Shown here: positions 11,736 through 24,940 of the stretch, piece by piece
Position numbering within the stretch: the first letter of the stretch is position 1
Layout: every line of letters starts with the position of its first letter
Source of the DNA: Collinsella phocaeensis
GTDB taxonomy: Bacteria; Actinomycetota; Coriobacteriia; Coriobacteriales; Coriobacteriaceae
NCBI RefSeq assembly: GCF_900119895.1
Contig: NZ_FQLR01000004.1
Span: 992,001 to 1,056,000, forward strand
DNA length: 64,000 bases
Reading direction: 5' to 3'
Position numbers and translations under genes: made by a program
The notes under the pieces: model-generated
Database searches by the model: none
What the model saw: only the letters and a program-made list of their open reading frames with translations
Told to the model about the DNA's origin: nothing

Positions 11736-14700
11736 TCAAGATGCGATCGAGCGTCCGGTCTCCATGAGCATATGCGCGACCGCGTCGACGGCGTCCTCGA
11801 TATCGTCGGCGTCGGCCTGCCAGGACCAGTTGCGCTCTGCGACGCCGGGAACGTTCATGCGCGCCTCGTCACCCAGCATGAGAAGGTCCTGCAGCTGCAT
11901 CATCACGACGTTTGCCGCGCTCTCGAGCGCATGCCGGACGATCTCGATACCCAGGTAGCGTGCACCGGGAACGGTTCCGTCGGAGCAGAACGCGCGCTGG
12001 CAGAAGCCCACGAGCGTCGACGTGTCGTGCGTCGAGGTGTAGAGCACCTTTTCCTTGTGCGTGCAGATCTGCTGGCGGATGTCGTTGTCAGCGAACTCGA
12101 GGACGTCCATGCCGGGGAATCCGCAGCTTGCGCAGAGCGCGCGGACGCCAGGGGTCAAAAGGCCAAGGTCCTCTGCGATGAGCGGCAAGGGGCCGAACTC
12201 CTCGTAGGCCCGCTCGAACAGCTCGATCCCTGGGCCGGGCAGCCAGCGTCCCTTCGTTCCGTCCTCGCCCGCGGGGATGCCGAAGTAGTTGTGGAATCCC
12301 AGGAAATGGTCGAGGCGAACCTGGTCGTACAGCGAGAACGAGCGCTTGAGGCGCGCGAGCCACCATACGTAGCCGTCACGTCGCATTTCGTCCCAGCGAT
12401 AGGTGGGGTTGCCCCATACCTGGCCGGTTGCGGAGAAGCGGTCGGGCGGGACGCCCGCGACCTCGTAGGGCATGCCGTCACGTCCGAGCGAGAACATCGT
12501 CGGCTCGCTCCAGGCGTCGGCCGAGTCGTCGGAGACGTACATCGGGATGTCGCCGATGACCTGGATGCCGTGCGCGTGTGCGTAATCGAGCAGATCGCGC
12601 CATTCGGTCTCGAAGCGGAACTGGGCGAAGGCGTGGAACTGGGCACGCCGCGCGAACCGCTCGTCGGCGAATACCGCGACATCGTAACGGCGCAGCTCTT
12701 CAGGCCACTCATGGCGCGATGAGCCCTTGAAGTGGTCCTTCACCGCCATGAAGGCGCAGTAGGGGTCGAGCCAGCTCTCGTTCTCGAGTGCGAACTCGAA
12801 GAACGCCTTGGACTGGAACCCTCCGTGCGTGCGGAACGCGGCAAAGTCGTGGTTCAGCGTGCGCGCGTCCTCCTCGAGCAGGGAGATGTTGCCGGCGAAC
12901 GCGGAGGGGCCGGCATAGGGCGACCCGTACGAATCGGTGGGGTTGACGGGTAGCACCTGCCAGTACCGTACGCCCATGCGGGCGAGCTGGTCGACGAAGC
13001 GCCGCGCGGGGGCGCCGAGGGTTCCGGGTCGTCCCGACCTGTTGGGAATCGAGGTGATGTGGCACAGCACGCCGGCACCTGGCTCCATGGGCTTCTGGAG
13101 GCGCCGCTCGCGCTGGGAGTACACGACCGAGCTGCCGAGCGGCCACAGCCGGACCTCGGCGCAGCCGTCGGCTCCGCGCTCGAGCTCTGTACCGGAGATG
13201 ACATCGACGGCGTAAGGGTTCTCGACGGGAAGGCGCACGGTGCGCGTGTTGGAGAGGCTGCGGTTGAGGAGGAGCGAAGCCATCTCGCCCGACGCGCCGC
13301 GGCGCCTCAGGCAGAGGACGTCGTCGTTGAGCGCGCTCGCCTCGAAGGTGCCCTCGGTGAGGAAAGGCAGGGCGCGCCGGAGCATGATGGCGTTGCGCAC
13401 CATCGTCAGCATGTCGCGGTCGCGAATATCCTCGAGCTCGGGCAGGGCGCGGCGGTTGCCGGGATCGGAGAGCCCCTCGAGGGCGAACTCGTCGCCGTAG
13501 TAGATGGAGGGGACGCCGGGAACCGTCATCTGCATGAGCGTCGCGAGCCAGAAACGGCCCTTCGCAAGCCCCATCGAGTTCTCGTCCAGGCGGAAGCGGC
13601 CGCGCTCGGCCTCGTGCACCTGCGACTCGTCGGGACCTCCGCCGAGCACGGAGGCGATGCGGGGTTTGTCATGGCTGCCGAGCAGGTTGAGGGCGCAGGC
13701 GAGCGCCTCGGGCGGATAGTTCTCGCGCAGGCACTCGAGGCGCTCCGCCGCCTCGTAGGCGGTCTCGCCGTAGACGAGGAAGCCCAGGATGGCGTCGCGG
13801 AGCGGGTAGTTCATGGCGGAATCGAGCTCGTCGCCCAGCAGGTATCTGCGGAGCTTGCCGTAGCTCGACTTGTTGGAGGCGTCCTCCCAGACCTCGCCGA
13901 GCAGCAGGCCGTCGGGAACCTCTTCGAGGACGGAGCGCTTGATGTCCGCGATGAGGCCGTCCGACAGCTCGTCGGCGACATCGAGGCGCCATCCCCGCGC
14001 TCCTGCACGCAACCAGGTCCTGATGACGCCGTCCTCGCCGAGCAGAAGCTCGCGTACGCGAGCGGAGTTCTCGTTCAGGTCGGGCATGTTGGTGATGCCC
14101 CACCAGCAGTCGTAGGTCCCGTCGTCCTTGAACAGGTACGCGTCGCGCCAGGGGGAATCCTCGGACTGCCATGCTCCGACTTCGGGATAGTTGCCGTAGC
14201 GGTTGAAGTAGCGGGAATCGTCACCGGTGTGGTTGAACACGCCGTCGAGGATGATGGAAATGCCGTGTTCGCGGGCGTCTGAGCAAAGCCGCTCGAAATC
14301 CTCCTTCGTGCCGAGCATCGGATCGATGCGCAAGTAGTCCCCCGTGTCGTAGCGGTGGTTGCTTTGGGCCTCGAAGATGGGGTTGAGGTAGATGGCCGTG
14401 ACGCCCATCTCCTGGAGCCGATCCAGGTCAAGACGGATGCCCTCGAGCGACCCTCCGTAGAAATCCCAGGTTCGTATGGCTCCCGTCTCGTCGCGTTCGT
14501 AGACGGGAGGCGTGTTCCAGTCCTCGACGATGCGCTTTCCGGGGCCGCGTCGGTCCCGGGCCAGGGCCGCCTCGCAGCGCTCGCGCCAGCCCGGATCGCG
14601 GCGGTAGCGGTCGGGGAAGATCTGATAGACGATACCGTGCTCGTACCATGAGGGGCGTTGCGCGCGATGGCGGTAGACCGTGATCTGGAATGAGGGGACC

Positions 14701-15032
14701 TCGGGGTAGTCGTAGGTAACCGAGAGGCCTCCGGTGCGACCCTGGCGCGCTCCGACGTAATGCATGCGCCCGGCGGTGTCTTTGACGTGGAAGCAGTACC
14801 AGACGAGCTCCTGCTCGGCGCAGTCGATGGTCGCCGAGAGCGTGGCGTCGTCGGTCGCGTCCATGGGAACGAAGCGCTCGCCCTCACCGTCGACCCAGAT
14901 GCGGACGCGCGCCTCGAGGGCATGGGCGTCCGCATCTTCGACGTGAAGCGCGAGGCGCACGGCGGTACCGACCACGACCGCTCCAAAGGGGGTGCGGAAA
15001 TCAGGACGGCGGCTGTTGTGCAAAAGGTTCAT
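11736..15032 (-). CDS. GH13 alpha-glucan hydrolase fused to GH77 4-alpha-glucanotransferase
   Basis: A 1098-residue two-enzyme fusion. After an N-terminal beta-rich domain (about 1-125) comes a GH13 barrel of neopullulanase/maltodextrinase type. Its nucleophile region is GWRLDVADE (about 349), its acid/base region LLGEVWED (about 377), and LGSHDKPR (about 452) supplies the third catalytic Asp. From about 650 the chain becomes an amylomaltase (MalQ): LPVNPTDSYGSPYAG, VRLDHFLGF (nucleophile, about 904), IAEDLG (acid/base, about 954) and THDTST (about 1004). Both catalytic sets are intact. One chain could therefore hydrolyse short branches or dextrins and recycle the maltooligosaccharides to chains GlgP can attack. 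It ends the glycogen operon but has a likely promoter of its own (TATACT at 15090-15095, minus strand). Confidence 0.92.
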   Translation of the reverse strand: MNLLHNSRRPDFRTPFGAVVVGTAVRLALHVEDADAHALEARVRIWVDGEGERFVPMDATDDATLSATIDCAEQELVWYCFHVKDTAGRMHYVGARQGRTGGLSVTYDYPEVPSFQITVYRHRAQRPSWYEHGIVYQIFPDRYRRDPGWRERCEAALARDRRGPGKRIVEDWNTPPVYERDETGAIRTWDFYGGSLEGIRLDLDRLQEMGVTAIYLNPIFEAQSNHRYDTGDYLRIDPMLGTKEDFERLCSDAREHGISIILDGVFNHTGDDSRYFNRYGNYPEVGAWQSEDSPWRDAYLFKDDGTYDCWWGITNMPDLNENSARVRELLLGEDGVIRTWLRAGARGWRLDVADELSDGLIADIKRSVLEEVPDGLLLGEVWEDASNKSSYGKLRRYLLGDELDSAMNYPLRDAILGFLVYGETAYEAAERLECLRENYPPEALACALNLLGSHDKPRIASVLGGGPDESQVHEAERGRFRLDENSMGLAKGRFWLATLMQMTVPGVPSIYYGDEFALEGLSDPGNRRALPELEDIRDRDMLTMVRNAIMLRRALPFLTEGTFEASALNDDVLCLRRRGASGEMASLLLNRSLSNTRTVRLPVENPYAVDVISGTELERGADGCAEVRLWPLGSSVVYSQRERRLQKPMEPGAGVLCHITSIPNRSGRPGTLGAPARRFVDQLARMGVRYWQVLPVNPTDSYGSPYAGPSAFAGNISLLEEDARTLNHDFAAFRTHGGFQSKAFFEFALENESWLDPYCAFMAVKDHFKGSSRHEWPEELRRYDVAVFADERFARRAQFHAFAQFRFETEWRDLLDYAHAHGIQVIGDIPMYVSDDSADAWSEPTMFSLGRDGMPYEVAGVPPDRFSATGQVWGNPTYRWDEMRRDGYVWWLARLKRSFSLYDQVRLDHFLGFHNYFGIPAGEDGTKGRWLPGPGIELFERAYEEFGPLPLIAEDLGLLTPGVRALCASCGFPGMDVLEFADNDIRQQICTHKEKVLYTSTHDTSTLVGFCQRAFCSDGTVPGARYLGIEIVRHALESAANVVMMQLQDLLMLGDEARMNVPGVAERNWSWQADADDIEDAVDAVAHMLMETGRSIAS

Positions 15033-15190: not shown

Positions 15191-17485
15191 CTATTTCGTC
15201 TTGCGGCTGGCTCCGCGGCGGACGTGGGGGACGCGCTTGTCGATCGTGGCACTCGGGGCTTCGGGCGCCGCATCGGAGACTTTGGCCGCAGCGGGGGCGG
15301 CGGCTGTCTTCGCCGCGGCCTTGGGCGCGGCAGGAGCCTTCTGGGCCGCGGGGGGCTTCGGTGCGCTTGCGGTGGCGGAGTCGGCCGCCTTCTTCGCCGT
15401 GGCCGCCGCACGGCGAGGCTTGGCCGCGGGCTTGGCCGCCGCCTTGGCCGCGGGCTTGACGGCCTCAGCCTCGGCGACCGGCTTGTCGGCCGAATCGGTC
15501 GCGCCGGCCGCTGTCTTCGCTTCGGTCGTGCGGGCGGTCGCAGCCTTCTTCGCGGCAGGGCGTTTCGCGGGCGCTATCTTCACGGGCTCCGCCTCGGCGC
15601 CCTGGGCGGCGGGGGCTGCGGTGCCGTCCTCGGTTGCCTTGGGCGCGCGCTTTGAGGGAGTTTTCCTCGCGGGCGCCTTCTTGGCGGGCGCGGTGTCGGC
15701 TTCCTCCGCGGGCTTGGTGGCGCGGGCGGTCTTGCGCGCCGTCGGCTTCTTCGGTTCGGCGGCATCTTCGACGCCTGCGGGTTCGGCAGCCGCGGGCGCC
15801 GCGACCTTCCTCGTGCGCGTCCGCTTGGGGGCAGGGGCCTTTTCACCGGCCTCTTCCGTGCTCTTCTGAGCCTTGGTCCTGGCTGGCGTCTTCGCTGCGG
15901 TCTTGGTTGCAGTCTTGGTTGCGGTCTTGCGCGGGCGCGCGGGCTTCTTCGCCGGCTTCGCGGCGGCTTCCGCCGCTGCCGCCTGCTCGGCGAGCAGCGC
16001 CTCGACGCCGGGTCGCATGTCAGGCCGCAGGTCGAGATAGAGGTTCATGTAGTCGCCGGCCGAACGCGTCCAGCTGAAATCAGCCTCCATGGCCTGCGTG
16101 ACGAGCGCATCCCAGGCGGCGCGGTCGTCCCAGAACAGACGGGCGGCGCGGAACACCGCGTCTCCCATCTCATCGCCATTGAAGTGCGTGAAGGAGAAGC
16201 CCGTGCCCTCGCCGGTGTACTGGTTGTAGGGGGTGACGGTGTCCCTCAGGCCACCGGTCTCTCGAACGATGGGCAGCGTGCCGTAGCGCATGGCGATGAT
16301 CTGGGAAAGACCGCAGGGCTCGAAGAGCGACGGCATGAGGAACATGTCCGCGGCGGCGTACATGCGCTGGGACAGCGCGGGGTCGAACTGGATGCGCGCG
16401 GCCATCTGGCCCGGATAAGTGCGCTCGAAATAGCGAAGCGCCTCCTCGTAGTCGTAATCGCCGGTTCCCAGGATCGCCACCTGGACGCCGCCGGAGAGGA
16501 TGCGGTCGAGTGCGTAGGTGACGAGGTCCATGCCTTTCTGGCGCGTGAGCCTGGTGACCATGACCATGAGCGGGCGGTCGTCGCGGACCTCGAGCCCGAG
16601 CTCGCGCTGGAGGGCGGCCTTGCAGGCGGCCTTCCCAGAGCGGTCGGCGACGGTGTAGGTCGCCTCGATGCGCGGATCGCTGGCGGGGTCGTTGCGCACG
16701 ACGTCGATACCGTTCAGGATTCCGTGCAGGATGTCGCGGCGGCGGCGGAGAGCCCCGTCCAGGCCCTCGCCGTACTCGGGCGTGCAGATCTCGGCGGCGT
16801 AGGTGGGGGAGACGGTTCCGATGGCGTCGGAGTAGTTGATGGCCCCGAGCATGTAGTTGATGGAACGGTCGTCGCAGCGGAGCTGCCGAACCGCCGGCTC
16901 GATATGCGACAGGCCGAGGACGTCGCCGAGCAGCATGTCGGTGAACTGGCCCTGGAAGGCGATGTTGTGGATGGAGAAGACGCACTTGACGTTTTCGTAG
17001 ACGGGCAAGCCCTGATAGAACTCGCGCAGGAACACGGGCGCGAGCGCGGTGTGCCAGTCGTTGCAGTGGAGGATGTCGCACGTAAAGCCGTCGGGAAGGT
17101 ACTGCAGGCTCTCGCAAACCGCCTTGGAGAAGTAGGCGAAGCGCTCCCCGTCGTCGAAGAAGCCGTACGGGTAGCTGCGACCGAAGTAGCGCTCGTTGTC
17201 GATGAAGATGTAGGTGACCCCGTCGTGGACGAGGCGCTCGAGCCCACAGTACTCGTTGCGCCAGCCGAGGGGCACGTAGAACTCCCCGACGTGCTCCATC
17301 TGGGCCTTGTACTCATCGGCAATCGTGGCGTACTTCGGGACCATGACGATGACGTCGGCCCCGGCGGCGTTGAGGGCTGAGGGCAGCGAGCCGGCGACGT
17401 CGCCGAGTCCGCCGGTCTTCACGAAGGGCGCCGCCTCTGCGCTGGCGAAGACGACACCCAGGCGATGCGGTGTGGTGTCTGGCAT
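15191..17485 (-). CDS. glgA: Glycogen synthase with a long lysine/alanine/proline-rich C-terminal tail
   Basis: Extends alpha-1,4-glucan from ADP-glucose (GT5). The catalytic part, about residues 1-495, has the usual length and motifs: KTGGLGDV at 23-30 (ADP-glucose binding), HCNDWHTAL, and EPCGLSQIIAMRYG with ETGGLRDTV near 385-415. The ATG before PDTTPHRLG has a GAAAGGAC ribosome site and is preferred to an upstream in-frame start at 17500. What is odd is residues about 496-764: roughly 268 extra residues made almost only of A, K, P, T, R and E, with histone H1-like KPAKKPA and TATKTATKT repeats and no visible fold. Such a tail is not part of ordinary GlgA; it should be disordered and strongly basic. 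The gene lies between glgD and the GH13-GH77 gene, with a stable hairpin on each side. Confidence 0.95.
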   Translation of the reverse strand: MPDTTPHRLGVVFASAEAAPFVKTGGLGDVAGSLPSALNAAGADVIVMVPKYATIADEYKAQMEHVGEFYVPLGWRNEYCGLERLVHDGVTYIFIDNERYFGRSYPYGFFDDGERFAYFSKAVCESLQYLPDGFTCDILHCNDWHTALAPVFLREFYQGLPVYENVKCVFSIHNIAFQGQFTDMLLGDVLGLSHIEPAVRQLRCDDRSINYMLGAINYSDAIGTVSPTYAAEICTPEYGEGLDGALRRRRDILHGILNGIDVVRNDPASDPRIEATYTVADRSGKAACKAALQRELGLEVRDDRPLMVMVTRLTRQKGMDLVTYALDRILSGGVQVAILGTGDYDYEEALRYFERTYPGQMAARIQFDPALSQRMYAAADMFLMPSLFEPCGLSQIIAMRYGTLPIVRETGGLRDTVTPYNQYTGEGTGFSFTHFNGDEMGDAVFRAARLFWDDRAAWDALVTQAMEADFSWTRSAGDYMNLYLDLRPDMRPGVEALLAEQAAAAEAAAKPAKKPARPRKTATKTATKTAAKTPARTKAQKSTEEAGEKAPAPKRTRTRKVAAPAAAEPAGVEDAAEPKKPTARKTARATKPAEEADTAPAKKAPARKTPSKRAPKATEDGTAAPAAQGAEAEPVKIAPAKRPAAKKAATARTTEAKTAAGATDSADKPVAEAEAVKPAAKAAAKPAAKPRRAAATAKKAADSATASAPKPPAAQKAPAAPKAAAKTAAAPAAAKVSDAAPEAPSATIDKRVPHVRRGASRKTK

Positions 17486-17516
17486 GTGAAGTCCTTTCAC
17501 GGTGGATATGAGGAAA

Positions 17517-17582: not shown

Positions 17583-18716
17583 CTAGTCGATGATGACCGT
17601 CTTCTTGGCGATCACGGGCGCTTTGGCGACCACCAGGGTCGCATCGGGCGTTCCGCGGAGCTCGGTGCTCGCCGGGACGACGTTGTTCTTGTCGATGATG
17701 GCGTTCTCGACGCGCGCTCCGGACTTGATCACGACGCCCTGCATCACGATGCTGTTCGTGACGCTCGCTCCATGCTCGACCACGACGCCGCGCGAAAGGA
17801 TCGAGTTGCGGACGGTGCCCTTGATGGCGCAGCCTGCGGAGATGAGCGAGTTGCAGACGACGCTGCCGTTGGTGTACTTCGCCGGGGGAGCGTCATGGGC
17901 CTTGGTGAGAATCGGGCGGTCGGGGCAGAAGAGCTTATCGTTGAGAGCCGGGTTAAGCAGATCCATCGAGCGCTGGAAGTAGGACTCCTCGTCGAAGATT
18001 CCGAGCGACAGGCCCTTGAACTCGTAGCTGCATACATCGATGCGGCCGAATTCGGGCTCGAGCGCATGGAACAGGTCGAGGTAATCCATCGCACCGCAGC
18101 GGTCGATGATCTGGAGCAGCACCTCGCGGTTGATGATGGCGCAATCAAGGAACTTGTTGTCCCCGTAGCAGCATCCGGGGTGCAGGGCCTTCACGCGGCC
18201 GGCCTCGCCGATCTCGAGCGAGGTGACGTCCTCGTCATGGGCGCGCTCGGCCTTGGTGTAGACCATGGTCGCGTGGGCGCCGGAGCGCTCGTGGGCCTCG
18301 ATGATCTCGGCGAGATCGAGGTTGTAGATGATGTTGCAGCCCATCATGACGACATAGGGCTTGTCGGAGCGCTGGAACAGCATCTTGTTGGAGATGATGT
18401 CGCGGAGCAGGAAGCACATGCCCTCCTTGGAGGACCCGAAGGCGTTGCCGGGCAGCATGAACAGGCCGCCCTTCTTGCGGTCGAGCATCCAGTCGCGCCC
18501 GCTGCTCAGATGATCGATAAGGGCGCGGTAGTTGCCCGGCATGACGATGCCGACGGTCTTGATGCCGGCGTTCGCCATGTTGGAGAGCGGGAAGTCGACG
18601 AGGCGATAGCGACCGAAGATCGGCAGCGCCGCGAAGGGGCGCTCGTCGAGCAGCTTGGTGCGGGTGCGGCAGGTATAGTTCGCGGTAATGTAACCGAGGG
18701 CCTTACGGTTGATCAT
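17583..18716 (-). CDS. glgD: Glucose-1-phosphate adenylyltransferase regulatory subunit GlgD
   Basis: A GlgC paralogue (377 residues) that assembles with GlgC and modulates ADP-glucose synthesis. It has the nucleotidyltransferase fold (PIFGRYRLVDFPLSNMANAGI) and a C-terminal left-handed beta-helix of hexapeptide repeats. It lacks the GGxGxRL phosphate-binding loop seen in the neighbouring GlgC: its N-terminus reads INRKALGYITANYTCRTRTKL. That is the known signature of GlgD, which is poorly active alone and acts in a GlgCD heterotetramer. It follows glgC with a 4-base gap and is surely co-expressed. GlgC/GlgD pairs are best known from Gram-positive bacteria. Confidence 0.93.
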   Translation of the reverse strand: MINRKALGYITANYTCRTRTKLLDERPFAALPIFGRYRLVDFPLSNMANAGIKTVGIVMPGNYRALIDHLSSGRDWMLDRKKGGLFMLPGNAFGSSKEGMCFLLRDIISNKMLFQRSDKPYVVMMGCNIIYNLDLAEIIEAHERSGAHATMVYTKAERAHDEDVTSLEIGEAGRVKALHPGCCYGDNKFLDCAIINREVLLQIIDRCGAMDYLDLFHALEPEFGRIDVCSYEFKGLSLGIFDEESYFQRSMDLLNPALNDKLFCPDRPILTKAHDAPPAKYTNGSVVCNSLISAGCAIKGTVRNSILSRGVVVEHGASVTNSIVMQGVVIKSGARVENAIIDKNNVVPASTELRGTPDATLVVAKAPVIAKKTVIID

Positions 18717-18720
18717 CGGT

Positions 18721-19866
18721 TCATTCCCCCTTCCCGATGACGACGTCGTTTCCGACGACGGCGGTGTCCTTCGTGGCGTCGACGCTTCCGAGCTTCACGC
18801 CCTCTTCGACGACGGAGTTCTCTCCCAGGATGGCCCGCACGACGTGCGCGCCGGCCTTCACGCGCGCTCCCGGCAGGAGCACGGAGTCCTCGACCACGGC
18901 GCGCTCGTCGACGACGGCGTCCGTGGAGAGGATGGAGTGCCGCACGGTGCCGAACACCTTGCAGCCGTTGGAGATCAGGCAGTCGTCGACGCGAGCCTCG
19001 GGCCCGATGTAGTGCGGGGGCCGGGTCGTGATGTTGCTCATGATCGGGAAGCTCTTGTCGTAGAGATCGAACTCGGGGTTCTCGCCGAGGAGGTCCATGG
19101 ACGTCTCGTGGAAGCTCGAGATGGTGCCGACGTCCTTCCAGAAGCCGTGGAACTCGTAGCAGTACAGGCGCCCGTCGTTCTCAAGGAGCTTGGGGATGAT
19201 GTCCTTGCCGAAGTCGTGGCTGCTGCGGGCGTCCAGCGCGTCCTCCTCGAGCGCGTTCAGCAGGACGTCCGTGCTGAAGATGTAGATGCCCATGGACGCC
19301 AGGTTGGAATCGGGCTTCTCCGGCTTCTCGGTGAACTTGACGATGCGGTCGTCATCGTCCTTGGTGATGATGCCGAAGCGGCTCGCCTCCTCCCAGGGCA
19401 CGGGCATGACGGAGACGGTGAGATCGGCGCCGTGCTCGATATGGCTCTTGAGCATCTTGCGGTAGTCCATGCGGTACAGGTGGTCGCCCGAGAGGATCAG
19501 GACGTACGCCGGGTCGTGCTCGCGGATATAGCCGATGTTCTGCGTCACCGCGTCCGCGGTCCCCGCGTACCAGCTTCCGCCCTCCTGCGTGGCGTAGGGG
19601 GGCAGGATGGAGACGCCCGCCCCGCGCTCGTCCAGATCCCAGGCCTCACCGGATCCGACGTAGTTGTTCAGCAGGTACGGGCGGTACTGCGTGAGCACGC
19701 CGACGGTATCGATCCCCGAGTTGGAGCAGTTCGAGAGCGAAAAGTCGATAATCCTGAACTTTCCGCCGAAGCTGACGGCCGGTTTGGCGATCTTGGAGGT
19801 GAGCGCCCCCAATCTGCTTCCCTGTCCTCCTGCGAGGAGCATCGCGATGCATTCTTTCTTGCTCAT
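18721..19866 (-). CDS. glgC: Glucose-1-phosphate adenylyltransferase catalytic subunit GlgC
   Basis: Makes ADP-glucose from ATP and glucose-1-phosphate, the committed step of glycogen synthesis. The 381-residue product has the catalytic loop [13 protein letters not shown] (about 11-23), [19 protein letters not shown] (about 28-46), [11 protein letters not shown] and FTEKPEKP, and ends with the beta-helix domain ([18 protein letters not shown] onward). The start is the ATG of MSKKE. It lies between glgP upstream and glgD 4 bases downstream. Confidence 0.96.
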
Positions 19867-19955: not shown

Positions 19956-22385
19956 CTAGGCGTGCCAGATCTCGTCTCGGTACTGGCGGATGGTGCGGTC
20001 CGAGGAGAAGTGCCCCGAGTTCGCGATGTTGGCGAGCGCCATGCGCTGCCAGGCGCGCGTGTCGTCGTAGCTTGCGGTCAGCTCGGTCCACGCGCTCATG
20101 TAGTCCGCGAAGTCCGCGAGCACGAAGTCGTAGTCGTTGTTGTTCATGAGCTCGGCGTGGATGGACTCGAAGTTGCCCGACAGACGGCTGTAGGTGCCGT
20201 CGGTGAGGTGGGCGACGACGCGTCCGATGCCGTCGCGGTCGGCGTTGACCACGTCCCATGCGAAGTAGTTGCCGGAGCGCAGGGCCTCGACCTCCTCGAC
20301 CTCCATGCCGAAGATCTTCTCGTTCTCGCGCCCGGCGAGCTCTGCGATCTCGATGTTGGCCCCGTCGAGCGTCCCCAGCGTGATCGCGCCGTTCATCATG
20401 AGCTTCATGTTCGAGGTGCCGGAAGCCTCCTTGCCCGCTGTGGAGATCTGCTCGGAGATCTCGGTCGCGGGATAGATGAGCTGCGCGTTGGAGACGGCGA
20501 AGTTGGGGATGAACACGACCTTGATCGTGTCGTTGACGCGGTCGTCGCTGTTGATGACGTCCGCTACGGAGTTGATCAGGCGAATGACCTCCTTGGCGAA
20601 CGTGTAGGCGCTGGCGGCCTTGCCCGAGAAGATGAAGGTCGTCTTATGGGGTTTGAAGGAGGGGTCGTCCAGCATGCGGTCGTACAGGTACATGACCTTG
20701 AAGATGTTCAGCAGCTGGCGCTTGTACGCATGGAAGCGCTTGACCTGCACGTCGAAGATGGAATCGACGTCGACGGTCACGCCGCAGGTACGCTCGATGT
20801 ATGCGGCGAGCCGCTCCTTGTTCGCGCGCTTGGACGCGGCGAGGCCGTCGAGGAAGGCCTCATCGTCGGCGAAGGCCTCGAGCTTCTTGAGCTCCGCGGC
20901 GTCGCGGTACCAGCCGTCGCCGATGCGCTCGGTGATGAGCGCGGAGAGCGACGGGTTGGCGTTGCCCAGGAAACGGCGCGGCGAGATGCCGTTGGTCTTG
21001 TTGTTGAACTTCTCCGGCATGAGCTCGTAGAAGTCGCGCAGCGTCTCGCGCTCGAGGATTTCGGTGTGCAGCTGGGCGACGCCGTTGACGGAGTGGCTGC
21101 AGATGACGGAGAGGTTGGCCATGCGGACCTGGCCGTCCCACAGGATGGCGGTATTGCGCATCTTCTCCTGCCAGCCCTCGATATCGCGGGGGAAGGACTC
21201 CATGTAGCGGCGGTTGATCTCGTCGATGATCATGTAGACGCGCGGCAGGAGGCGGCGGAACGTGTCGATGGGCCACTTCTCGAGCGCTTCGGGAAGGACG
21301 GTGTGGTTCGTGTAGGAGACCGAGCGGGTGACGAGGTCCCATGCGGTGTCCCAGTCCAGGCCCTCCTCGTCCATGAACAGGCGCATCAGCTCGGCGCCGC
21401 ACATGGCCGGATGGGTATCGTTGGTGTGGATGGCTACCAGGTCGGGGAAGCGATTCCAGGCATCGGGGCCGTTGTCGAACTTGAAGGTGCGCAGGATCGA
21501 GGTGAGGCCCGCCGAGACGAACAGATACTCCTGCTTGAGGCGCAGTATGCGCCCGTGCTCGCCCGCGTCGTTGGGGTACAGGATCTCCGAGATGGCCTCG
21601 GCGTCGGTGCGGAACTTGTTGGCCCGGGCATAGTCTCCCGCGTTGAACGCATCGAGGTCGAAGTCGGCTCCGGCGGGCTGGGCACTCCAGAGCCGCAGGC
21701 GGTTGACGGTCTTGCTGCCGTAGCCGACGATCGGGACGTCGTAGGGGATGGCGGCGACGAGCTCCCCGCCCTCGGTGGTGAAGGAGAAGGTTCCGTCCGC
21801 ATCCTCGTGGCGCACGACATCGCCCCCGAAGCGCACGAGCACGCGGCTCTCGGGGTGCGCGGTCTCCCACGGATAGCCTTTCTCGAGCCAGTTGTCGGTC
21901 ACCTCGACCTGCCGGCCGTCGACGATCTTCTGGCGGAACAGCCCGTAGCGGTAGCGCATGCCGTTGCCGAACCCGAGGATGCCCTCGCTCGCCATGGAGT
22001 CGAGGAAGCAGGCGGCGAGGCGCCCCAGACCCCCGTTGCCAAGGCCGGGGTCGACCTCTTCGCAGAGCAGCTCGTCGAGGGAGATGCCCATCTCGGAGAG
22101 GCCCTGCTCGACAAGGTCGCGCACGCCGTAGTTCAGAAGGTAGTTATCGAGGAGCGGACCGATGAGGAACTCAAGGGAGAAGTAGTAGACCTTCTTCCTG
22201 TCGCTGCGGCCGTTCTCGGAGTCGCACTCGGCGAACTGCCGGTTGGCGCGCGTGGCGATCAGCTTGGCGAGCGCGCGGTACTGCTCGGCGCCATGCGCGG
22301 AGGCGATGTCCTTTCCCACCTCGGCCATGATCATGGCCCGGTAGGCCTCCTTGAACTCGTCGGTCGTCTCGAATAGCTTGCTCAT
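19956..22385 (-). CDS. glgP: Glycogen/starch phosphorylase
   Basis: Releases glucose-1-phosphate from non-reducing ends of glycogen (GT35, PLP-dependent). The 809-residue length is typical. VDPGLGNGGLGRLAACFLDS near 110 and the PLP site EASGTSNMKLMMNGAITLGT with the Schiff-base lysine near 657 are intact, as are the RVNDTIKVVFIPNF and LDGANIEI segments. Start is ATG (MSKLFETTDEF). It lies directly downstream of glgB, 22 bases apart, and is transcribed with the synthetic genes, so synthesis and breakdown are controlled together here. Confidence 0.96.
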   Translation of the reverse strand: MSKLFETTDEFKEAYRAMIMAEVGKDIASAHGAEQYRALAKLIATRANRQFAECDSENGRSDRKKVYYFSLEFLIGPLLDNYLLNYGVRDLVEQGLSEMGISLDELLCEEVDPGLGNGGLGRLAACFLDSMASEGILGFGNGMRYRYGLFRQKIVDGRQVEVTDNWLEKGYPWETAHPESRVLVRFGGDVVRHEDADGTFSFTTEGGELVAAIPYDVPIVGYGSKTVNRLRLWSAQPAGADFDLDAFNAGDYARANKFRTDAEAISEILYPNDAGEHGRILRLKQEYLFVSAGLTSILRTFKFDNGPDAWNRFPDLVAIHTNDTHPAMCGAELMRLFMDEEGLDWDTAWDLVTRSVSYTNHTVLPEALEKWPIDTFRRLLPRVYMIIDEINRRYMESFPRDIEGWQEKMRNTAILWDGQVRMANLSVICSHSVNGVAQLHTEILERETLRDFYELMPEKFNNKTNGISPRRFLGNANPSLSALITERIGDGWYRDAAELKKLEAFADDEAFLDGLAASKRANKERLAAYIERTCGVTVDVDSIFDVQVKRFHAYKRQLLNIFKVMYLYDRMLDDPSFKPHKTTFIFSGKAASAYTFAKEVIRLINSVADVINSDDRVNDTIKVVFIPNFAVSNAQLIYPATEISEQISTAGKEASGTSNMKLMMNGAITLGTLDGANIEIAELAGRENEKIFGMEVEEVEALRSGNYFAWDVVNADRDGIGRVVAHLTDGTYSRLSGNFESIHAELMNNNDYDFVLADFADYMSAWTELTASYDDTRAWQRMALANIANSGHFSSDRTIRQYRDEIWHA

Positions 22386-22407: not shown

Positions 22408-24615
22408 CTAGTTGTCGGATTTCGACGCTCGGGAGGATGCGGCGCCGCCCGATGCCTTCGTGCCGCGCGGCTTGGTCTTGGTCGAGGGCTTGCGCGCAGA
22501 GGCCTTCTTGGTCGGAGCCGCCGCTTCGGCGGCCTTCTTCTCTGCCGCCGCGCCCCGCTTCGACGCCGCGCGCTTGGCCTTGGGCTTTGCCTTGGGCCTG
22601 TTCTTGCTCGGTCCGCGCCGCTTCAGGATGATGCCGGCGAGCGGCGGGATGGTGAGCTCGATGGAGTTCTCCCGGCCGTGCATGGGCTCCTCGACGCTCG
22701 AGATGAGCTTGCGGTTGCCCTTGCCCGATCCGCCGAAGGCGACGTCGTCGGAGTTGAAGATCTCGGCCCAGGCCCCCTCGCGCGGCACGCCTATGCGATA
22801 GGTCTGGTAGTAGGCGGGGTTGAAGTTGATGACGACGATGAGGTCGTCGGAGGCCTTCTTGCCATGGCGCACGTAGGAGATGATGGACTGCTCCGTGTTG
22901 TCCGCGTCGATCCACTCGAACCCTTCGGGCGCGTAGGCGTACTCGTAGAGCGCCGGCTCGGAGGTGTACAGGTGGTTGAGCGCCCGGATGAACTCCCGGT
23001 GCTTCGCGTGCGTCTCGTGCTCCTCCGCGAGGAACCATTGGATGGATTCGTAGTAGCGCCATTCGATGAACTGAGCGATCTCGTTGCCCATGAAGTTGAG
23101 CTTGGCGCCGGGGTGGGTCATCTGCCAGAAGGCGAGTGTGCGGAGCCCCGCGAACTGGCGCCACCAGTCGCCCGGCATGCGCCCGATGAGGGAGCACTTG
23201 CCGTGGACGACCTCGTCGTGCGAGAGGGGTAGGATGTAGTTCTCGCTGTAGGCGTACATGAGCGAGAACGTGAGCAGCCCGTGGTTGCCCGGCCTCCAGG
23301 GGAAGTCGGTCTGCATGTAGTGCAGCGTGTCGTTCATCCAGCCCATGTCCCACTTGTAGTGGAAGCTGAGGCCGCCGTCCTCGGCGGGATAGGTGACGAG
23401 GGGCCAGGCGGTGGACTCCTCGGCCATCATCATGACATCGGGGAAGGCGCGTTCGACGGTCGTGTTGACCTGGCGTATGAACGCGGAGGCATCCAGGTCC
23501 TCCTCGGTTCCGTACTCGTTGAACTTCTTGTCGGCGGGATTGTCCACGCCGAAGTTGAGGTACAGCATGCTTGAGACGCCGTCCATGCGGATGCCGTCCG
23601 CGTGGAACATGTCGATCCAGAACAGCGCGTTGGAGACAAGGAAGCTCCTGACCTCACCGCGGCTGAAGTCGAACTTATGCGTACCCCAGTTGGGATGGAT
23701 CTCGCGCTCGTAGAGCATATGGCCGTTGAACGTCGCGAGCCCCTGGGAGTCGGCGCAGAAGCCGCCCGGCACCCAGTCGAGGATCACGCCGATGCCGGCG
23801 GCATGGCAGGCATCGACGAAATGCATGAGCTGCTTGGGTTCGCCGTAGCGCGCCGTCGCCGCGTAGTACCCGGTGTCCTGGTAGCCCCAGGAGCCGTCGA
23901 AGGGGTGCTCCTGGACGGGCAGGACCTCGATATGGGTGTAGCCCATGTCGCGGACGTATTCGACGAGCTCGACGGAGAGCTCGTCGTAGGTGTAGTAGGT
24001 GCCGCGCTGCGCGGGGAACTGGTCCATGGGGCCGGGCCAGGTGCCGTCTTCACGGGGCTCGCCCTGGGGTTCGTCCCCGTGGCGCTTCCAGCTTCCAAGA
24101 TGAACTTCGTAGATGTTGAGCGGCCGCTCCATGTGCGGCGTCTGCGAGCGGTCGGCGAGCCAGGCGGAGTCCTGCCAGGAATAGCCGTTGATGTCCATGA
24201 GGCGTGACGCGGTGCCCGGTGCGACCTCGGACCAGAACGCATAGGGGTCCGCCTTGTAGAGGACCTCGCCGTCCTCGGTCGAGATTGCGTACTTGTAGAG
24301 CGCGCCCTGTTCCAGGCCGGGCACGAACGCCTGCCACAGCGCGCTGGAGAGCACGGGCTCCATGGGCGTGGCGCCGGCGTTCCATCCGTTGAAGTCGCCG
24401 ACGACGCTGACGCCCGCAACCTCGGGCGCCCATACGCAGAAGCGCCAGCCCGCGATGCCGTCTTGAACATCGGGGTGAGCGCCCATCTTTTCCCAGCTGC
24501 GGTTCCAGGTCCCGCATGAGAAGAGATGGATGTCGTCTTCGGTGATGATGAGGCAGGGCTGTTGCTCGGTGGCAGGGTCGGCTGCGTTGGAGACGGATTC
24601 ACGTGCGGGTTTCAC
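22408..24615 (-). CDS. glgB: 1,4-alpha-glucan branching enzyme with basic C-terminal tail
   Basis: Introduces alpha-1,6 branches (GH13 subfamily 8/9, CBM48 at the N-terminus: WAPEVAGVSVVGDFNGW). The catalytic triad regions are DGIRMDGVSSMLY (about 341), MMAEESTAW (about 397) and LSHDEVVHGK (about 465). The ordinary enzyme ends about residue 664 (AGIILKRRG). About 71 further residues are rich in K, A, R, P and S (KAKPKAKRAASK, STKTKPRGTKAS), echoing the longer GlgA tail. I prefer the GTG start at 24615, with GGAAG five bases upstream, over the TTG at 24627, which has no ribosome site. First gene of the glycogen operon. Confidence 0.94.
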   Translation of the reverse strand: MKPARESVSNAADPATEQQPCLIITEDDIHLFSCGTWNRSWEKMGAHPDVQDGIAGWRFCVWAPEVAGVSVVGDFNGWNAGATPMEPVLSSALWQAFVPGLEQGALYKYAISTEDGEVLYKADPYAFWSEVAPGTASRLMDINGYSWQDSAWLADRSQTPHMERPLNIYEVHLGSWKRHGDEPQGEPREDGTWPGPMDQFPAQRGTYYTYDELSVELVEYVRDMGYTHIEVLPVQEHPFDGSWGYQDTGYYAATARYGEPKQLMHFVDACHAAGIGVILDWVPGGFCADSQGLATFNGHMLYEREIHPNWGTHKFDFSRGEVRSFLVSNALFWIDMFHADGIRMDGVSSMLYLNFGVDNPADKKFNEYGTEEDLDASAFIRQVNTTVERAFPDVMMMAEESTAWPLVTYPAEDGGLSFHYKWDMGWMNDTLHYMQTDFPWRPGNHGLLTFSLMYAYSENYILPLSHDEVVHGKCSLIGRMPGDWWRQFAGLRTLAFWQMTHPGAKLNFMGNEIAQFIEWRYYESIQWFLAEEHETHAKHREFIRALNHLYTSEPALYEYAYAPEGFEWIDADNTEQSIISYVRHGKKASDDLIVVINFNPAYYQTYRIGVPREGAWAEIFNSDDVAFGGSGKGNRKLISSVEEPMHGRENSIELTIPPLAGIILKRRGPSKNRPKAKPKAKRAASKRGAAAEKKAAEAAAPTKKASARKPSTKTKPRGTKASGGAASSRASKSDN

Positions 24616-24940
24616 TCGTACTTCCAATCACTGCGGGCTTGGGTGAAGCCGGGTTCTGGTAGACAAACAGGGCCCACGTCCCGGCATCACACATGTCGGC
24701 ACATGGGGCCATATAAAACATAGCACTTAGGCATCCGTTCGTCGTGCGGCAGCTGGTTCGGGGTCCATTTTGACCATCCGGCGATGGATGGAGGATATAT
24801 GTACTCTTTTATGATAAGGTGAATGTTTGATGTGCGGCGAAGCTGCGCCGCCGTGCGCAACCGACGGCAGAGACCCCGATCCGCCTTCTGGCGCTCCTGT
24901 ACCCATCCGGTGCCGCGCGCACCCCTTCTGAAAGGCGCTT
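24616..24940. other. Divergent intergenic region between glgB and the HAD gene
   Basis: A 325-base gap that must hold the glg operon promoter (leftward) and the HAD-thiN promoter (rightward). A relatively AT-rich patch (24711-24728) contains TATGTT/TTATAT-like -10 sequences for the leftward direction. A short inverted repeat of CATGT/ACATG with a 4-base spacer lies around 24692-24706. No strong -35/-10 pair and no gene were seen. Confidence 0.4.

Follow-up and report, generated by a model that had tools for sequence, protein, structure and literature searches.

What might a glycogen synthase do with a histone H1-like tail behind its catalytic core? This question is raised by the glgA gene of Collinsella phocaeensis, a member of a genus that is common in the gut. 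The gene lies in a stretch of 64,000 nucleotides (positions 992,001 to 1,056,000 of contig NZ_FQLR01000004.1), here called the window. GlgA and GlgB act on glycogen. In the Collinsella lineage, GlgA (elongation) and GlgB (branching) were both found to carry, in their translated sequences, a lysine/alanine-rich, net-cationic C-terminal tail.

The GlgA frame and its C-terminal tail

The open frame of GlgA (764 aa; 15191-17485, minus strand) begins with ATG and is free of stops up to its stop codon (15191-15193, minus strand); an alternative GTG start at 17500 is also possible. Residues 1-490 form the catalytic core of a GT5 glycogen synthase (16016..17485, minus strand; NF001898, Pfam PF08323), of which residues 11-486 match NF001898, the NCBIfam GlgA equivalog, over its full length at 636.2 bits versus a cut-off of 603. 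GlgA chains usually end near residue 480-490, an end point that is customary and not strictly defining, and the frame exceeds it by about 274 residues. As tail-less relatives stop right after LHPEA or LHPEV, the tail proper begins at about residue 491 and occupies residues 491-764 (15194..16015, minus strand). The original prediction of an extension of some 268 residues rich in A, K, P and T past the core was borne out by the uninterrupted frame; its interval, 15194-15997, corresponds exactly to residues 497-764 (268 aa).

In this 268-residue cut, alanine makes up 35 %, and 41 lysines and 18 arginines set against 25 acidic residues (D+E) give a net charge of +34; the likeness to histone H1 in composition was thus rightly seen. 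Disorder is predicted as well: AlphaFold2 gave block pLDDT values of 27-41 and, from residue 511 on, neither helix nor strand. No family was found for the tail in Pfam or NCBIfam scans, and a Pfam scan of the whole GlgA (E 0.001) returned glycosyltransferase families only, with no linker-histone winged-helix domain. By composition and predicted disorder, the tail can be classed with the long disordered, lysine-rich and Ala/Pro-rich terminal tails of granule-nucleoid tethers.

From the first to the third codon position, GC content is 0.70/0.69/0.83 for the tail, against 0.64/0.43/0.90 for the core. Tandem Repeats Finder detected a TATK-type repeat with a 12-base unit (15888..15929, minus strand). 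With only 3.5 copies this array is weak, so that microsatellite expansion does not account for the whole tail; repeat expansion as its origin was ruled out because every array found is short and weak. The last 15 residues (15194..15238, minus strand) are basic. The extreme C-terminus resembles SVSAARKTTTRKKR in many relatives, and the last 15 residues contain at least four K/R and no D/E in 54 of 58 GlgA tails of at least 90 aa.

Conservation of the GlgA tail in the family

A tail of 99-462 aa was present in 58 of the 62 GlgA genes read from the family; the other four, all from one genus (g2), end where the core ends. The 58 tails, all of at least 90 aa, have a median length of 264.5 aa and a median net charge of +28. 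An explicit criterion for K-rich low complexity was satisfied by 57/62 genes, that is, by 57 of the 58 outside g2. The exception, G046 (locus L130), has an ambiguous base and a frame break within its tail, yet is included in the 58/62 and in the figures for composition and charge. Also retained among the 58 is G064 (L027), with the lowest net charge (+4), whose tail is cut by a contig end at 196 aa. Not counted among the 62 is G036 (L144), which has just 53 tail residues before its contig stops.

The tail frame is intact in 21 close relatives, with no in-frame stop, and the other two frames contain 2-6 and 8-16 stops per tail. In the same relatives dN/dS was 0.254 for the tail and 0.04 for the core, which indicates purifying selection on the tail; the 287 gaps in this analysis were tallied per row, so that a shared indel is counted repeatedly, and its 210 and 231 pairs are non-independent. 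Read-through or an assembly artefact was ruled out by the tails in 58/62 family genes and the stop-free frame in the 21 relatives. The proposal that the extension is maintained coding sequence was accordingly upheld by the frame kept in these relatives and the tail dN/dS of 0.25. Together with the 57/62 family genes that satisfy the K-rich criterion, these results show that the tail exceeds what chance would produce. Close relatives with the same core and a stop at its end, which would have spoken against that proposal, were sought; the closest tail-less ones found share just 66-67 % core identity and belong to g2, in the same family, or to family f5 (G068 and G097).

The GlgB tail and the neighbouring enzymes

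A tail peculiar to GlgA, as originally supposed, was ruled out once the codon pattern K[AT]3K[AT]3K pointed to GlgB, whose tail is of the same kind and which is the commoner carrier among the sampled genomes. Of the original prediction as a whole, the coding character, the H1-like composition and the predicted disorder have stood, and the view of GlgA as a lone oddity has not. The folded part of the branching enzyme comprises residues 1-671, counted from the TTG start as listed (22615..24627, minus strand), with the Pfam domains CBM_48, Alpha-amylase and Alpha-amylase_C and a match to TIGR01515 above cut-off. It is followed by a basic tail of 68 aa with a net charge of +18 (22411..22614, minus strand). 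The tail is net positive in all 63 family GlgB genes read; outside g2 (n=59) the medians are 78 aa and +21. Not all of these tails are long or strongly charged (one has 16 aa and a net charge of +4, another 53 aa and +3), and 14/63 genes fall short of a 50-residue tail criterion. The translated genes showed that the tail is long on GlgA and shorter on GlgB, and that composition is kept and the order of the letters is not.

A direct contact between the two tails was considered, in which the acidic start of the GlgA tail would pair with the basic GlgB tail and so join synthase and branching enzyme. The genes of both enzymes belong to the same cluster and share a strand. The first fifth of the GlgA tail is net acidic in 51 of 57 cases, and GlgB tails combine 23.9 % lysine with little glutamate (1.5 %). 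However, when the window's own GlgA tail is divided into tenths, none of them is net negative, and genus g2 has the GlgB tail without that of GlgA, which makes such pairing very unlikely. The acidic first fifth in 51/57 tails is nevertheless a feature beyond what a plain DNA tether explains.

The neighbouring glycogen genes, all on the minus strand, served as controls. In GlgP, the glycogen phosphorylase (19956..22385), PF00343 extends up to residue 808 of 809. In GlgC, the ADP-glucose pyrophosphorylase (18721..19866; PF00483), Hexapep_GlmU reaches residue 368 of 381, and in its companion subunit (17583..18716), which we take to be GlgD, residue 352 of 377. The 1098-aa fusion of α-amylase and 4-α-glucanotransferase (MalQ; 11736..15032; PF00128, PF02446) is covered by its PF02446 match up to residue 1076. 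The tail is thus absent, as read from the translated frames, from the makers of ADP-glucose (GlgC, GlgD) and from the glycogen degraders (GlgP, amylase-MalQ). In 35 family loci (453,212 bases), many of them duplicate records of genomes already in the gene counts, 62 frames satisfied the K-rich criterion, being either GlgA (34) or GlgB (28); none was GlgP, GlgC or GlgD, each present in all 35 loci, or amylase-MalQ, present in 32.

In the C. phocaeensis genome, 464 kb (22 %) were scanned for composition, and only GlgA and GlgB satisfied the tail criterion. A search of the genome with the tail sequence found GlgA alone, and two codon patterns likewise matched only the GlgA tail; as both approaches missed the genome's own GlgB tail, they say little about the 78 % outside the composition scan. 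In two genomes of the family, K-rich N-terminal stretches were seen on frames that are presumably SecE- and FtsK-like.

Tails outside the family and on other proteins

Where genomes of other families were sampled, the main carriers of the tail were GlgB and, at its N-terminus, a divergent GlgA. The rows read (20 GlgB, 24 divergent GlgA and 16 GlgA1) were hand-picked, the GlgA ones partly for long open frames, so that the rates are not prevalences. An N-terminal tail was present in 16 of the 24 divergent GlgA rows (one of which, L306, is truncated where its contig begins), and single members elsewhere have a C-terminal one. GlgA1 lacked the tail in 13/16 rows. Its absence there and from the GlgA of g2 indicates that glycogen synthesis does not need the tail. 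Mapped on a 77-row tree, the C-tail label required five changes, of which well-supported branches force at least four; the N-tail label required three.

Outside the phylum, 2 of 45 GlgA loci satisfied the tail criterion; these loci are those of the 80 best matches that lie outside the family and not a random sample, two of them (L089, L105) are cut by a contig end, and the basic tail of a third (L085; 31 aa) is too short to count. Of GlgB in other Actinomycetota, 1/30 loci satisfied it, the 30 being those obtained for the best matches in a sample of 149 genomes.

A tail confined to glycogen enzymes throughout the order was not upheld, because the KPAA pattern also occurs on other proteins: in f5 on esterases, GatB and TatA, in g2 on unknown proteins. 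Among 30 KPAA loci read, one per genome from 30 of 54 matching genomes (none of them among the 13 matching genomes of families f2 and f6), 12 belonged to proteins other than GlgA and GlgB: six esterase-like proteins, one GatB and one TatA, all in f5, and four unknown proteins, all in g2. Such tails on related genomes' enzymes are what would be expected if Coriobacteriales simply acquire K/A/P-rich tails on assorted enzymes, with no role specific to glycogen; the tails would be solubility bristles or merely tolerated, with selection acting only against hydrophobic or frame-breaking changes. Fast sequence turnover under a kept composition (dN/dS 0.25-0.32 for tails versus 0.02-0.04 for cores) and the wide range of GlgA tail lengths (99-462 aa) would fit this as well. 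Yet the lineage under study carries the tails on GlgA and GlgB only, in the stretches scanned for composition, and of the KPAA matches in 23 family genomes outside g2, the 12 that were read are GlgA, 10 of the remaining 11 match just beyond the GlgA core end by coordinates, and the last, G036, matches at a contig end. The occurrence of tails on opposite ends of divergent GlgA lineages also suggests more than tolerance. A generic origin is rated as somewhat unlikely.

Possible function of the tails

The reading preferred here is that the tails of GlgA and GlgB are a putative tether to the nucleoid or another polyanion, comparable to PhaF, PhaM and AlgP; a probability of about 0.4 is given to it. 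Seated on the glucan by their catalytic domains, both enzymes would use their cationic tails for nonspecific binding to a polyanion, for which nucleoid DNA is the likeliest candidate. This would anchor the nascent glycogen particle, prevent clumping and allow both daughter cells to receive a share, with the tether being part of the polymerising enzymes themselves instead of a separate lysine-rich protein. The wider proposal, that the chromosome positions and partitions glycogen particles in Coriobacteriaceae (and, by way of other carrier enzymes, in Atopobiaceae) through enzyme-borne H1-like tethers, a trait that various glycogen synthases would have acquired more than once and not always at the same terminus, is doubtful.

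High lysine content and predicted disorder would also suit tails that coacervate with RNA or polyphosphate and so gather GlgA, GlgB and glucan with no attachment to the chromosome. A polyphosphate kinase (PPK; PF02503) is encoded in 57 of 64 family genomes, that of C. phocaeensis included, and the AlgP paper discusses lysine-rich tails together with polyphosphate and its condensation (PMC9239181). Polyphosphate as the one necessary ligand is weakened by three genomes (G020, G028 and G030; 97-99 % complete) that retain the GlgA tail and have no PF02503 match; the version with RNA is unaffected. Such a condensate is considered unlikely.

A polycationic tail conserved on both glycogen-building enzymes of a genus common in the gut would make glycogen a third storage polymer that is a candidate for chromosome-guided positioning, and it points to direct fusion of a histone H1-like tail to a metabolic polymerase as a possibility. 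No paper on histone-like tails of GlgA or GlgB was among the matches listed, in a searched literature that leaves most subscription journals outside. A word search of the first 300,000 of the 445,374 characters of a 2024 review on prokaryotic α-glucan enzymes gave no match for disordered, Coriobacter, Collinsella or nucleoid (PMC11046441).

Comparison with known granule tethers

Nucleoid tethers have been described for PHA and polyphosphate granules: according to a review, PhaM, PhaF and AlgP connect granules to the nucleoid through nonspecific DNA binding, and the word glycogen is absent from its main text (PMC13052382). DNA binding and granule location are reported for the PHA granule phasin PhaF of Pseudomonas putida (PMC3574117, PMC13052382). 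PhaF likewise joins a disordered, lysine-rich, histone-like C-terminus to a part seated on the storage polymer. It is, however, a separate structural protein of PHA granules, whereas the tails considered here are on the polymerising enzymes, concern glycogen and are putative DNA binders. PhaM of Ralstonia eutropha contacts the synthase PhaC1 and binds the nucleoid, and its deletion is reported to lead to very few, larger PHB granules (PMC3556143). In linking a polymer synthase with the nucleoid it resembles the proposed tether, but PhaM partners the synthase in trans and the GlgA tail is fused to it.

AlgP of Pseudomonas aeruginosa has an H1-like, KPAA-rich C-terminus of 154 aa that is required for the spacing of polyphosphate granules; the tethering role is its authors' speculation, and in vitro DNA binding is reported for peptides with KPAAKPAAK-type repeats (PMC9239181). 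The GlgA tail of one sampled genome (G232) is a KPAAKPAAK repeat of the same kind, whereas the Collinsella tails are TATK/AKPAAK mixtures and not strict KPAA repeats. A further difference is that AlgP is not described there as an enzyme and that its granule consists of polyphosphate (PMC9239181). Lysine-rich C-terminal tails are also reported on the actinobacterial DNA-binding proteins TopA and HupB (PMC7398561, PMC5676037); both already act on DNA, unlike GlgA and GlgB, which have no known DNA role. Ordinary bacterial GlgA and GlgB share the canonical catalytic domains but stop at the core.

GlgA and its tail

The glycogen synthase GlgA is encoded on the reverse strand (15191-17485) by an open frame of 764 residues, of which residues 11-486 were matched above cut-off by the curated GlgA model NF001898. 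The tail (15194-16015) comprises about 274 residues, is rich in alanine, lysine, proline and threonine and is net positive; as delimited in the original prediction (15194-15997), it has 268 amino acids with 41 lysines, 18 arginines and 25 acidic residues. The histone H1-like composition ascribed to it is borne out. AlphaFold2 gave pLDDT values of 27-41 per ten-residue block from residue 511 onward and neither helix nor strand, a result that is consistent with disorder but falls short of proof because the input alignment was shallow (14 relatives) and the blocks of the core themselves range from 28 to 90. A search of the whole of GlgA against Pfam returned glycosyltransferase domains only; no linker-histone domain was found, and GlgA as a histone H1 was rejected.

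GlgA was found in 63 of 65 genomes of the Coriobacteriaceae. A tail of at least 90 residues is present on 58 of the 62 genes readable beyond the core; one of these tails is truncated where its contig stops, and another is interrupted at an unresolved base. These tails are 99-462 amino acids long (median 264.5), have a net charge of +4 to +47 (median +28) and consist of 30.8 % alanine, 17.9 % lysine, 16.7 % threonine and 10.4 % proline (cores: 9.7 % alanine, 3.1 % lysine). Named records matching tailed GlgA belong to Collinsella, Enorma, one Candidatus Limicola and some other Coriobacteriaceae. A tail is lacking in the four genomes of one genus, g2, where core identity is 66 % and the stop directly follows LHPEA or LHPEV. 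The average charge per residue is -0.18 in the first tenth of the tail and -0.05 in the second; the remainder is basic, most strongly so in the last tenth (+0.295). Of 57 tails, 51 have a net acidic first fifth, the window's own being an exception. At locus L130 (genome G046), an unresolved base in the tail is followed by an apparent break of the frame, which is probably due to faulty assembly; the early tail is still K/A/P-rich, like the others.

For the analysis of selection, 21 genes were taken from a cluster resembling Collinsella aerofaciens, as judged by the names of matching records. No in-frame stop occurs in these tails, the other two frames containing 2-6 and 8-16 per tail, and every one of the gap runs in the nucleotide alignment (287 when counted row by row) has a length divisible by three. 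The dN/dS ratio was 0.038 for the core and 0.254 for the tail (Nei-Gojobori, medians of 210 non-independent pairs). Judged from the sequences, the tail is maintained as coding sequence, as had been predicted, and is not readthrough, with selection acting on composition and frame more than on the exact letters.

GlgB as the second carrier

GlgB (22408-24627), just upstream of glgP, carries a C-terminal tail of 68 residues with a net charge of +18 (22411-22614, reverse strand). Of 64 family genomes, 63 have the enzyme, and all 63 genes read have a net-positive terminal tail, of 16-140 amino acids (median 78; net +3 to +31) outside g2 (n=59) and 55-86 amino acids (net +12 to +21) within it (n=4). 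A stricter criterion, lysine-rich low complexity over 50 residues, marked 49 of the 63, the remainder being shorter or less lysine-rich. Among 22 close relatives, dN/dS was 0.319 for the tail and 0.019 for the core. When codons for K[AT]3K[AT]3K were searched for in the 64 genomes, 23 matches turned up in 15 of them. On reading, these proved to lie in GlgA tails, GlgB tails (G048, G057, G058), a SecE-like frame (G060) and an FtsK-like frame (G062), the last two identified by our own reading, and, once, in a g2 protein of no assigned identity (G003).

A six-frame scan with the 50-residue criterion, covering 464 kb of this genome (the window plus 20 stretches of 20 kb at even spacing; 22 % of 2,105,457 bases), marked two frames, GlgA and GlgB. 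As the window was picked for GlgA, the informative part is that GlgB is the sole other carrier within these 464 kb; the rest of the genome, covered only by searches to which the known GlgB tail was invisible, may contain further carriers. The genome_contigs collection contributed 35 family loci (453,212 bases, in many cases from records also counted as family genomes), in which GlgA was marked 34 times, GlgB 28 times and no other frame; the unmarked GlgA is at a contig end (L052). None of GlgP, GlgC and GlgD (35 loci each) or the amylase-MalQ fusion (32 loci), scored as present when matched over at least 40 % of the protein, was marked. As far as scanned, these conserved, cationic tails are therefore confined in this lineage to GlgA, where the tail is predicted to be disordered, and GlgB: they track the two polymer-acting enzymes and not the whole glg cluster. 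A role of the tails as a glue between GlgA and GlgB is improbable.

The fusion adjoining the cluster in the window (11736-15032, reverse strand) joins an alpha-amylase domain to a GH77 4-alpha-glucanotransferase in 1098 amino acids.

Tails outside the family and on other proteins

In sampled genomes of family f5, which we take to be Atopobiaceae, 17 of 18 GlgB have a tail of at least 52 amino acids (net +13 to +35); the single GlgB gene read from each of the families f2 and f6 has none. In other families, the main GlgA mostly stops where the core does, the criterion marking 3 of 16 hand-picked rows (L148, L149, L157). For a divergent GlgA, 43-49 % identical to that of the window and a second copy in several f5 genomes, 24 rows were read, and 16 of these have an N-terminal tail. 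A maximum-likelihood tree computed from 77 cores places the 27 C-tailed family rows in a single clade (support 100/100) that excludes g2. Five changes of the C-tail label (at least four forced by well-supported branches) and three of the N-tail label are needed on this tree, which is midpoint-rooted only and drew a program warning of long branches meeting; some changes may be losses. Because the tails occupy opposite ends of GlgA, several independent gains are the simplest reading. Out of the phylum, 2 of 45 GlgA loci taken from best matches were marked (L067, L070, both Lachnospiraceae), and in other Actinomycetota 1 of 30 GlgB loci. The latter (L315 of G473, 9.7 Mb), outside the class, has an N-terminal KKTTAKKAPAKK-type stretch, unique among the 30 examined.

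Among 247 genomes from the order, a KPAA-type codon pattern matched 54, namely 23 family genomes outside g2, 4 of g2, 14 of f5, 7 of f2 and 6 of f6. Thirty loci were read (12, 4, 14, 0 and 0, respectively). Eighteen are GlgA or GlgB (12 family GlgA, 3 divergent GlgA, 3 GlgB); the other 12, all from f5 or g2, are six esterase-like proteins, one GatB, one TatA and four without identity. Pfam supports three of the esterases, GatB and TatA, the other three esterases being assigned by our reading of sequence likeness. In 10 of the 11 unread family genomes outside g2, the match lies by coordinates just beyond the end of the GlgA core; that of G036 is on a contig end. Such tails are thus a more general habit in f5 and g2, as might be expected of generic solubilising tails, an explanation that we hold to be rather unlikely; the argument for a role specific to glycogen rests on the own lineage, where GlgA and GlgB are the only carriers as far as scanned.

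The esterase-like proteins, with C-terminal tails, come from six f5 genomes (PF00756 on L344, L351 and L355; L349, L354 and L356 by our reading). GatB, the Asp/Glu-tRNA amidotransferase subunit B (L345:1-2022, forward strand, G129), has a long K/A/T-rich C-terminal tail, and the TatA-type protein (PF02416; L348:1327-2022, reverse strand, G135) a PAAKPAAK stretch. In g2, which has no GlgA tail, a protein (L273 on G003:C10; L358 on G001:C4) carries a long N-terminal KPAA-type stretch, of about 300 residues in G003, where its 158-residue C-terminal part had no Pfam match.

A possible tether and its relatives

GlgA and GlgB would be seated on the glucan; their tails may bind DNA or another polyanion and would thereby hold the glycogen particle to the nucleoid or to that polyanion, with positioning or inheritance of the particles as the benefit. 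By analogy with known granule systems, we give this tether a probability of roughly 0.4. A condensate of the tails with RNA or polyphosphate is unlikely. Of 64 family genomes, 57 have polyphosphate kinase (PF02503). Among those with no match, three that are nearly complete (G020, G028, G030; completeness 97-99 %) keep the GlgA tail, which argues against polyphosphate as the sole ligand.

PhaM and PhaF tie storage granules to the nucleoid, holding the granule at one end and DNA through a histone-like domain, as passages of PMC13052382 describe (see also parts of PMC3556143 for PhaM and of PMC3574117 for PhaF). Passages of PMC13052382 and PMC9239181 propose AlgP as a comparable nucleoid link for polyphosphate, and a passage of the latter reports DNA binding in vitro by KPAA-repeat peptides. 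The tails of GlgA and GlgB are similar in composition to the KPAA-type or histone-like tails of these tether proteins, and GlgA of genome G232 has a repeat of the same kind as those discussed for AlgP. The likeness, known here from sequence, is one of anatomy, and membership is not claimed; unlike in PhaF, PhaM and AlgP, the tail is here fused to enzymes.
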